From an uncultured Pelagibacteraceae bacterium (GTDB lineage: Bacteria > Pseudomonadota > Alphaproteobacteria > Pelagibacterales > Pelagibacteraceae), in contig CABYTL010000002.1 of NCBI GenBank assembly GCA_902521805.1, positions 109,674 through 173,673 on the forward strand: a DNA stretch of 64,000 nucleotides. The letters are read 5' to 3'. The position numbers and the translations under genes were made by a program. Below are positions 18,968 to 43,588 of this stretch, one piece after another. The notes under the pieces were generated by a model, which made no database searches, was not told the origin of the DNA, and saw nothing but the letters and a program-made list of their open reading frames with translations. How positions within the stretch are numbered: the stretch's first letter is position 1; each line of letters starts with the position of its first letter.

Positions 18968-19063
18968 AGCAGTGATCTCACTAGTGGGCGAACCCTCGCT
19001 GACTAGTGTCGATCTCTTTGTTTCCAAAGACACCACAAATTTAATGTATTTGCGGAAACTGCC
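18968..19063 (-). ncRNA. Candidate structured RNA (four-way junction) in the ffh 5' leader
   Basis: Minus strand: GGCAGT/ACTGCT closing stem; CCGCAAAT-(7)-ATTTGTGG; CTTTG-GAAA-CAAAG; GATC..CACTAGT..GCGA-GGGT-TCGC..ACTAGTG..GATC; about 34 bp in 96 nt. G-U pairs in the first two stems become A-C mismatches on the plus strand. Confidence 0.65.
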
Positions 19064-37557: not shown

Positions 37558-37785
37558 TTAAATACTCTGGCCGCTAGATAAAATTTCTTTGTTAATTTTT
37601 TGAGATCTTGCTGTTTCTGCTTTTTTAGAGTCTAGGGCTCCATATTTAGAGATAAATCTATTTCTCTCTTTAGTATATTGAACTTTTATAATTACATACA
37701 AAGTTATAAAGCTTAAAAGAGTAAAAAAAAATGATGTCCAAACATAAATACCATATCCATTCATATAAAATATTTCAGTTATCAT
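37558..37785 (-). CDS. ccmD: CcmD-like heme exporter protein
   Basis: 75 aa single-TM protein between ccmC and ccmE. Confidence 0.75.
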
Positions 37786-38489
37786 AATCTATCTAAGCCT
37801 TTATTTTTAATTTTTATCAGCTCTGTATTATATTTCATTAAAAAAATTAGCAAAGAAAATAGGGTAAATGCCGCAGTCATAATAAATAATGGAAATAACA
37901 TTGATGTATGTATTGAAGATTTAGACAATAAATTTATTGAAGCTGGTTGATGCAAGGTATTCCACCAGTCAACTGAATATTTAATAATTGGAACGTTAAC
38001 AATTCCAAATATTGTAATTATTGTAGTAACTCTTAAAACTTGATCTTTATTTTCATACATTCTCCACGCAACCAAATACATTAAATAGAAGATAGCTAAA
38101 ATTAGCATTGAAGTAATTCTTGCGTCCCAAGCCCACCAACTTCCCCACGTAGGTTTTCCCCAAATGGAACCTGTAACTAAAGCAATAATATTAAATAATA
38201 ATCCTGAGGGAGCAAAACTTTTTGCAATTAAAAAAAAATTTTTATTTTTAAAAATATAACCACTTACTGATAGTAAAGTAATTGATGAAAAAATTCCCAA
38301 TGAAATCCATGCAGCTGGCACATGAACATACATTATCCTTACTGAATGTCCTTGTTTATAATCTTCTGGAGATAAAAACAAGGCTTCAACTAGACCTATA
38401 GAAATTACCATAATAAATAAAATTAAAACATACTTTGGTGCTCTAGAGGTGATTATAAATATTTTATTTGGTTCAAAAATTTTAAACAT
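37782..38489 (-). CDS. ccmC: Heme export protein CcmC
   Basis: IMYVHVPAAWISLG, WGKPTWGSWWAWDARITSMLIL. Confidence 0.95.
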   Translation of the reverse strand: MFKIFEPNKIFIITSRAPKYVLILFIMVISIGLVEALFLSPEDYKQGHSVRIMYVHVPAAWISLGIFSSITLLSVSGYIFKNKNFFLIAKSFAPSGLLFNIIALVTGSIWGKPTWGSWWAWDARITSMLILAIFYLMYLVAWRMYENKDQVLRVTTIITIFGIVNVPIIKYSVDWWNTLHQPASINLLSKSSIHTSMLFPLFIMTAAFTLFSLLIFLMKYNTELIKIKNKGLDRL

Positions 38490-38522
38490 AATTATTAGAA
38501 GCTTTTAATATGAAAGATTTAT

Positions 38523-38579
38523 CTGATCAAGAATGTAGAGGGAGATAATAATGAGGGATAATTTCACACTCTTGATCAG
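38523..38579 (-). promoter_or_regulatory. Long hairpin in the ccmC leader region
   Basis: Minus strand CTGATCAAGAGTGT ... ACATTCTTGATCAG, 14 bp including one G-U; loop contains AUCCCUC...AUCUCCCU. Confidence 0.5.
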
Positions 38580-38616
38580 TAATAATATTAATATCATAAA
38601 TTTCTGTGACTAAGTT

Positions 38617-38654
38617 TTGAGCTAATTGTGTTTAAATAATGAAAATTAGCTCAA
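38617..38654 (-). terminator. 11-bp hairpin across the hspQ stop codon (possible terminator, no U-tract)
   Basis: TTGAGCTAATT ... AATTAGCTCAA. Confidence 0.4.
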
Positions 38655-38971
38655 TTTGAGGGCTTGAAATAACTGGAGCCTTTTTTTCCAGAGAAAATCT
38701 CCTCAATCAAAGGATGTTTTATTGGTTCATCCGAGTCATCAGTTAAAAGATTTTGCTCTGAGACATAAGCCTCATAAGTAATCTCATCATTTTCAGCTAA
38801 CAAATGATAAAAAGGTTGATCTTTTCTTGGTCTTACATTTTTTGGTATTGATTGATACCACTCTTCAGAGTTATTAAACTCAAAATCAACATCGTAAATT
38901 ACTCCTCTAAATTCAAAATGTTTATGCTTTACGATATCACCGATTGAAAATTTAGCTTTTTGAATTGCCAT
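38651..38971 (-). CDS. hspQ: Heat shock protein HspQ / YccV-like hemimethylated DNA-binding protein
   Basis: FSIGDIVKHKHFEFRGVIYDVD...QPFYHLLAEN. Confidence 0.88.
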   Translation of the reverse strand: MAIQKAKFSIGDIVKHKHFEFRGVIYDVDFEFNNSEEWYQSIPKNVRPRKDQPFYHLLAENDEITYEAYVSEQNLLTDDSDEPIKHPLIEEIFSGKKGSSYFKPSN

Positions 38972-42400: not shown

Positions 42401-43588
42401 ATGAAATATAAAAAAAAAATTGTTCTAGCTTATTCTGGAGGTTTAGATACATCAATAATTTTAAAATGGCTTCAAGAAAACTATAACGCTGAAGTAATTT
42501 GTTACACCGCTGATATTGGACAAGACATCAATCGTAAAAAAATATTTCAAAATGCAAAAAAATTTGGTGTTAAACATATTGTTGTGAGAGACCTTAAAGA
42601 TGAATTTGTAAAAAATTATATATATCCTATGATTAGAGGACATGCGATATACGAAGGAGTTTATTTATTAGGTACTTCGATTGCAAGACCCTTAATTGCA
42701 AAAGACCAGATTAAAATAGCAAAAAAATTTAAAGCATATGCTGTTTCTCACGGAGCAACAGGAAAAGGAAATGACCAAGTAAGATTTGAATTGGGTTATC
42801 ATTATTTTGATCCAAAAATTAAAATAATTGCACCTTGGAGAATTTGGAAATTAAAATCCAGAAAAGATCTTATAAATTATGCTAAAAAACATAAAATTAA
42901 TATTCCTAAAGATAAAAAAGGAGCTCAACCATTTTCAGTTGATGATAATTTATTGCACACATCGACAGAAGGTAAGTTTTTAGAAAATCCAAAAAATTCT
43001 GCACCAGAATTTATATTTCAAAGAACTGTGTCTCCAGAAAAGGCTCCCAATAAACCTCAATATGTAATGATTAATTTTAAAAATAGTAACCCAATAGGTA
43101 TTAATGGAAAAAAACTATCTCCCTCAAAATTGTTAGAGAAACTTAATCATCTTGCAGGAAAAAATGGTATTGGAAGAGTTGATTTAGTTGAAAATAGATT
43201 TATTGGAATTAAATCAAGAGGTATCTATGAGACACCTGGTGGAACATTGCTTATGACGGCACATAGAGCAATTGAATCTATTACTCTCGATAAAGAAACA
43301 ATGCATAAAAAAGAACAAATCATGCCAAGATATGCAGAGCTTATATATAATGGTTATTGGTATTCAAGAGAAAGACTGAATCTTCAAAAAATTGTTGATC
43401 TTAAAAAAAATAAAGTAAACGGATCAGTAAAACTTAAACTATATAAAGGTAATATAATAATTGTATCGAGACAGACTAAAAGTTCTGCGTATTCAATTAA
43501 AAAAGTTTCTTTCGAGGAAAATAAATCTTTTAATAAATCATATGTTGAAAGATTTATTAATTATCATAAAAAAAAACTTCGATCTTAA
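42401..43588 (+). CDS. argG: Argininosuccinate synthase
   Basis: VLAYSGGLDTSIILKWL, SHGATGKGNDQVRFE. Confidence 0.97.
   Translation: MKYKKKIVLAYSGGLDTSIILKWLQENYNAEVICYTADIGQDINRKKIFQNAKKFGVKHIVVRDLKDEFVKNYIYPMIRGHAIYEGVYLLGTSIARPLIAKDQIKIAKKFKAYAVSHGATGKGNDQVRFELGYHYFDPKIKIIAPWRIWKLKSRKDLINYAKKHKINIPKDKKGAQPFSVDDNLLHTSTEGKFLENPKNSAPEFIFQRTVSPEKAPNKPQYVMINFKNSNPIGINGKKLSPSKLLEKLNHLAGKNGIGRVDLVENRFIGIKSRGIYETPGGTLLMTAHRAIESITLDKETMHKKEQIMPRYAELIYNGYWYSRERLNLQKIVDLKKNKVNGSVKLKLYKGNIIIVSRQTKSSAYSIKKVSFEENKSFNKSYVERFINYHKKKLRS

Follow-up and report, generated by a model that had tools for sequence, protein, structure and literature searches.

A covarying RNA hairpin with a near-invariant C-rich loop precedes ccmC in Pelagibacter

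The ar14 small RNAs (NfeR1 in Sinorhizobium meliloti) contain three hairpins that each carry CCUCCUCCC, an identical C-rich motif displayed in unpaired loops on stems that are highly different (PMC10746234). The hairpin described here, located between hspQ and ccmC in a 64,000-nucleotide stretch of DNA from an uncultured Pelagibacteraceae bacterium (hereafter the window), resembles them in being alphaproteobacterial and in conserving a loop motif while the stems differ. However, its motif is UCUCCCU or ACUCCCU rather than CCUCCUCCC, it is a single hairpin instead of three, and it sits in the putative leader of ccmC, with no terminator and no Shine-Dalgarno (SD) targets detected. The ar14/NfeR1 RNAs are a working analogue of this element and not its family; two of their defining features were tested here and were not found.

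Structured leader motifs have also been described in 'Candidatus Pelagibacter ubique' by Meyer et al. (2009), including those of rpsB, rpsL, ffh, pntA, rhtB, and others (PMC2704228). Like them, the present element is a conserved hairpin in a long Pelagibacter intergenic region before a gene, and the pntA loop is also especially conserved (PMC2704228). Their list includes no motif adjoining hspQ or ccmC (PMC2704228). The accompanying table ranks gaps with a GC content above about 26% (PMC2704228), and the GC content of the hspQ-ccmC gap is 24.8%, which suggests that screens restricted to GC-rich gaps overlook AU-rich RNAs in such genomes. No match to the gap was found in Rfam 15 at the gathering score, and at a relaxed threshold the best hit (E of 0.22) was to a microRNA model that is unrelated and whose cut-off it missed by far. 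A metatranscriptomic survey of small RNAs in the sea, reportedly that of Shi et al. in 2009, may hold an earlier, unnamed sighting of the hairpin. The sole Rfam match in the window is the SAR11 ffh leader RNA (RF01793) at positions 18970–19023. Stabilising stem-loops of the ompA type are hairpins that form the 5' terminus of an mRNA; the ccmC element shares this predicted position, whereas its loop sequence is conserved, which would be unneeded for a mere stabiliser.

In the window, ccmC lies on the minus strand downstream of hspQ and is followed on the same strand by ccmD, ccmE, and ccmF. The order hspQ, gap, ccmC is kept in 50 of the 50 loci first examined, as well as in genera g2–g5. Genus and family labels (g1–g5, f1, f2) are numbers of the search tool; the named members of g1 are Pelagibacter or Pelagibacteraceae records, 'Ca. 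Pelagibacter ubique' AAA795-D22 among them. The features of the locus, given in the direction of the ccmC strand, are as follows:

38651–38971, minus strand: hspQ, the upstream gene, 106 aa (open reading frame and synteny)
38607–38638, minus strand: promoter-like block TTnAACACAnTTAGYTCAAAnCTTnGaCA (array scoring, conserved in g1–g5)
38590–38598, minus strand: predicted -10 region, family consensus TAnnnT (profile)
38583, minus strand: predicted transcription start, an A, 4 nt before the stem (from the -10 spacing)
38566–38579, minus strand: hairpin 5' arm CTGATCAAGAGTGT (folding and stem search, covariation)
38537–38565, minus strand: 29-nt loop with two C tracts, AUCCCUC and UAUCUCCCUC (sequence, loop comparison)
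38538–38548, minus strand: conserved loop motif UUAUCUCCCUC, family core (U/A)CUCCCU (loop comparison across g1–g5)
38523–38536, minus strand: hairpin 3' arm ACATTCTTGATCAG (folding and stem search, covariation)
38490–38522, minus strand: AU-rich linker between the hairpin and the start codon of ccmC; its sequence and length vary, and it has neither an SD nor an intrinsic terminator
37782–38489, minus strand: ccmC, 235 aa (open reading frame)

A preliminary description of this DNA had proposed a 14-bp minus-strand stem of CTGATCAAGAGTGT and ACATTCTTGATCAG, closing a 29-nt loop in an hspQ-ccmC gap of about 160 nt. The stem was recovered at 38579–38523, with the single G-U pair claimed for the minus strand (A-C if read on the plus strand); the loop tracts AUCCCUC and AUCUCCCU are both present in the 29-nt loop, and the gap measures 161 nt. 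Folding of this gap gave a z score of -3.64, with an equally stable structure in one of 200 shuffles, and the predicted transcript folded alone gave a z score of -3.98, a stability matched by none of 200 shuffles. The gapped stem pattern occurs once in the 64 kb and in none of 100 shuffles. Each locus folds into one hairpin with a single helix, and no further conserved pairing was seen in the leader by inspection. The hairpin is a single-copy element that was never found at loci other than hspQ-ccmC. Two additional pairings were considered and rejected by eye: a pseudoknot between ATTATC in the loop and a downstream GATAAT is broken in the alignment of many relatives (e.g., L003, L037, and L039), and pairing of the upstream AACACA with GTGTT of the arm showed no covariation. 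A second inverted repeat, TTGAGCTAATT and AATTAGCTCAA at 38617–38654, spans the hspQ stop codon and overlaps the promoter block in this genome; judging from the relatives, in which its upstream arm is not kept, it probably arose by chance.

Relatives were searched for an unconserved stem or for substitutions that break the pairing, as the preliminary description had proposed, and the hairpin survived this comparison, its pairing being kept with compensatory change. The 13 core pairs are paired in 100% of 36 distinct sequences from close relatives. When SAR11 hspQ-ccmC gaps were aligned in a wider set of 25 sequences (g1 plus one g2 row), 98% of the cells were paired and 11 of the 14 pairs showed two-sided compensatory change, a figure slightly under-counted because the single g2 row is out of register. 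On no measure did any of 500 shuffles match these values, and pairing in slid controls was 28–43%. Many of the substitutions produce G-U on the minus strand, equivalent to an A-C mismatch on the opposite strand, and these wobbles fit the ccmC strand only. The stems of g2, g3, and g4 (GTCCAGTTTGAAG/CTTCAAACTGGAC, ACCTAACTGAG/CTCAGTTAGGT, and GTCTGGTTTGGAG/CTCCAAACCAGAC) pair perfectly, as does the 15-bp stem of g5, which starts with AGCCCGATTGAGG; the stem sequences of g2–g5 are unrelated, yet pairing is kept and the loop core is the same. The element is almost certainly a real RNA hairpin under selection, and very probably it is a so far undescribed regulatory RNA.

Of 399 genomes in the genus, 306 have a match to the 221-nt region searched, including 53 of the 57 that are at least 90% complete, a spread far beyond chance. 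The hairpin is present in all 181 hspQ-ccmC gaps examined from g1 (Pelagibacter) and g2, with 69 distinct stems, and at one locus each of g3, g4, and g5; g2 was seen in eight genomes, and g3, g4, and g5 are represented by one sequenced locus each. At every f1 locus found, it lies upstream of ccmC on the same strand. Fourteen g1 genomes are without the hairpin, and they are probably cases of assembly gaps rather than losses, because hspQ is missing as well (present in 0 of the 14 assemblies). In family f2 of the same order, neither the hairpin nor the CA array described below was seen before ccmC, which is preceded by a gene whose end resembles CcmB, and hspQ is followed by another gene. At L275, L276, L277, L281, L283, and L284 of the sister family, ccmC directly follows the end of a ccmB-like gene, whereas it follows hspQ in f1. 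From these gene orders, the ccm cluster appears to be rearranged between f1 and the sister family, the hairpin RNA accompanying the f1 arrangement.

A search with model R2 over 337 genomes of the class returned members of Pelagibacter and one further contig, assigned to a genome of another family (G793; L320, G793:C48). This contig is Pelagibacter-like, carrying hspQ, the hairpin, and ccmC in the same order, with hspQ 90% and ccmC 75% identical, and is probably misbinned or an assembly contamination. With strict filters R2 did not detect genome G399 of g2 and could therefore also overlook remote relatives outside the family; within what was searchable, the hairpin RNA appears confined to family f1. 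Matches of model R1 in family f2 are located inside a coding gene, a 20-pair stem around CTCCCT at L295 runs antisense within the coding sequence of a DegP-type protease, and no viral copies of the exact g1 motif were found.

The loop varies from 17 to 38 nt across loci, and its core, UCUCCCU (ACUCCCU in a few loci), is nearly invariant across genera. A second, weaker C tract (e.g., ACCCUUC or UCCCUC) stands 8–12 nt before the main motif in 65 of 88 distinct loops, at 38555–38561 in this genome, and is missing in some clades.

The hairpin is preceded by a conserved array that resembles a promoter. The block contains three CA half-sites at a spacing of exactly 11 bp, and the -10 follows 11 bp after the last of them. 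In 63 non-redundant gaps anchored on the block, a TAnnnT element follows 12–17 nt after it (T in 95%, A in 97%, and T in 70%); this genome departs at the first T, with TATGAT at 38598–38593 or GATATT at 38595–38590 as the candidate. No -35 hexamer or TTGACA was found at the normal spacing. The array was scored on four features, namely each of two further CA half-sites, correctly spaced, the G, and a TA at the proper distance. All four are present in 116 of 135 distinct gaps and three in the other 19, with g2–g5 included; shuffled sequences reached a score of three in 0.9% of cases and never four. The distance from the TA of the -10 to the stem is 16 ± 1 nt (range 14–18), and transcription should therefore begin about 4 nt before the hairpin, where an A occupies the expected position in 71% of loci. 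Promoters activated by OmpR/PhoB-type regulators carry direct half-sites with an 11-bp spacing, the last of them about 11 bp before the -10, in place of a -35. The three half-sites here are spaced and placed alike, whereas the half-site is nCA(n)A; by this analogy, the array may be under the control of an OmpR/PhoB-type DNA-binding regulator.

The preliminary description had placed the hairpin in the leader of ccmC, had suggested that its loop could pair with purine-rich, SD-like sequence, and had proposed that it may regulate cytochrome c maturation genes or be a small RNA. The placement agrees with an RNA on the ccmC strand that would lie behind the conserved promoter-like sequence; pairing with an SD of ccmC itself is not supported. 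None of 86 non-redundant loci has an SD before ccmC. The loop complement AGGGAG appears in 2 of the 86 ccmC transcript regions, whereas its permutations average 6.7; therefore the loop does not mask the ribosome-binding site of its own gene. Trans pairing with the SDs of other genes is likewise unsupported, since in four genomes AGGGAG shows no enrichment relative to permuted seeds: it is followed by ATG within 14 nt at 169 places, compared with 186 for the permuted seed GAGAGG. The exact 9-nt complements of the loop that were checked in the retrieved loci fall within coding sequence or antisense to it, with none at a conserved SD. Elsewhere in the window, the exact loop complement GAGGGAGATA was resolved as antisense in argG and as lying inside an acyl-CoA-synthetase-like coding sequence. 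Of the other GAGGGAGAT sites, those that were assigned are in coding sequence, and the only repeated gene, in two genomes, is RsmE-like. In argG, the sense strand at 43115–43125 reads CTATCTCCCTC, almost the 11-mer of the hairpin loop. G402 and G411 also have GAGGGAGAT sites roughly 4.5 kb away from the hairpin, a recurrence that likely reflects coding conservation.

With slightly better than even confidence, the element is read as a hairpin at the 5' terminus of the ccmC mRNA, in its leader, with a loop recognised in trans. A putative promoter of its own inside the hspQ-ccmC gap would drive the ccmC(DEF) mRNA, at whose extreme 5' end the hairpin would display the near-invariant C-rich loop with its core (U/A)CUCCCU. 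A trans partner, either a protein or an RNA with a purine-rich segment, would bind the loop and thereby set the stability or translation of the SD-less ccmC message, and an OmpR/PhoB-type regulator may act on the 11-bp-spaced CA half-sites. We infer the start site, the role of the leader in cis, the class of the regulator, and the existence of a loop partner. Against the leader model, the linker between the hairpin and ccmC is unconserved, with no mechanistic tie of the loop to the ccmC start. A conserved loop with stem turnover is also the pattern of anti-SD small RNAs. In the main rival reading, possible if rather doubtful, the hairpin is a small RNA of its own that acts in trans, or a dual leader and small RNA processed from the ccmC leader, and its C-rich loop pairs with purine-rich translation starts of other mRNAs, in the manner of the alphaproteobacterial anti-SD small RNAs. 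Such an RNA would account for a loop core kept while stems are replaced, as in ar14/NfeR1 (PMC10746234), and it agrees with the second upstream C tract, the rarity of AGGGAG in the ccmC transcript, the promoter-like array of its own, and a few individual genes (PII-like L289, L296, and L297) with AGGGAG just before the start codon. However, AGGGAG before ATG shows no enrichment, none of the exact complements checked lies at a conserved SD, the hairpin was found nowhere else, and it is followed by neither a terminator nor a U tract; a scan for intrinsic (Rho-independent) terminators found none, and the 3' flank in g2, AGACTAACACATACC, is without a U tract.

If the ccmC leader hairpin served simply as a passive 5' stem-loop protecting the mRNA from 5'-end-dependent decay, its predicted place 4 nt downstream of the start site and the retention of the stem through complete sequence change would be explained, but a near-invariant core of 6–10 nt in a loop of such variable length would not, and this explanation is considered unlikely. 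Still less probable is a DNA feature, either a palindrome bound by a protein or a side effect of promoter conservation: the element is an inverted repeat with a 3' arm that is almost invariant inside g1, yet its wobble pairs fit one strand only and its arms change wholly between genera with pairing retained. A small leader peptide gene is scarcely credible; an ATG-started frame of about 30 codons crosses the hairpin in this genome, but hairpin lengths fall evenly into the three classes modulo 3 (36, 33, 30) and a frame of at least 20 codons crosses the hairpin in only 47 of 99 cases. An intrinsic terminator of hspQ is given equally little credence, the terminator scan being negative and the stem lacking a U tract. 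The features of a riboswitch, a conserved aptamer core that goes beyond one hairpin and a switching structure, were not found either: there is a single helix, no other conserved pairing on inspection, and a variable linker.

The ccmC product has a role in building cytochrome c, and SAR11 bacteria are among the most abundant in the ocean. In sulfur-limited stationary cells of 'Ca. P. ubique', ccmC mRNA was 10.35-fold up in one comparison and 4.74-fold up relative to control stationary phase, and ccmC is one of only three transcripts singled out under sulfur limitation (PMC5069961). The rise was attributed by the authors to heme c demand, and no element was proposed (PMC5069961). Since ccmC mRNA rises 5–10 fold in sulfur limitation, regulation is plausible; the increase could also stem from the promoter alone. 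SAR11 bacteria have few regulators, and the median intergenic spacer of 'Ca. P. ubique' is 3 nt (PMC5069961); therefore, the persistence of a 160-nt gap throughout a family, together with a covarying hairpin and a fixed promoter-like array, speaks strongly for its being used. The hspQ-ccmC synteny itself could persist for other reasons in a streamlined genome. For the unexplained 5–10 fold rise of ccmC under sulfur limitation, the hairpin is a concrete candidate cis element, and its defined loop gives a search target for a binding partner. A more speculative and fairly improbable idea is that the RNA has a dual function, as a ccmC 5' leader whose (U/A)CUCCCU loop also acts in trans, coupling the induction of cytochrome c maturation to repression elsewhere. 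If true, the most abundant bacteria of the ocean would in this way link ccm induction under sulfur or redox stress to the repression of other mRNAs.
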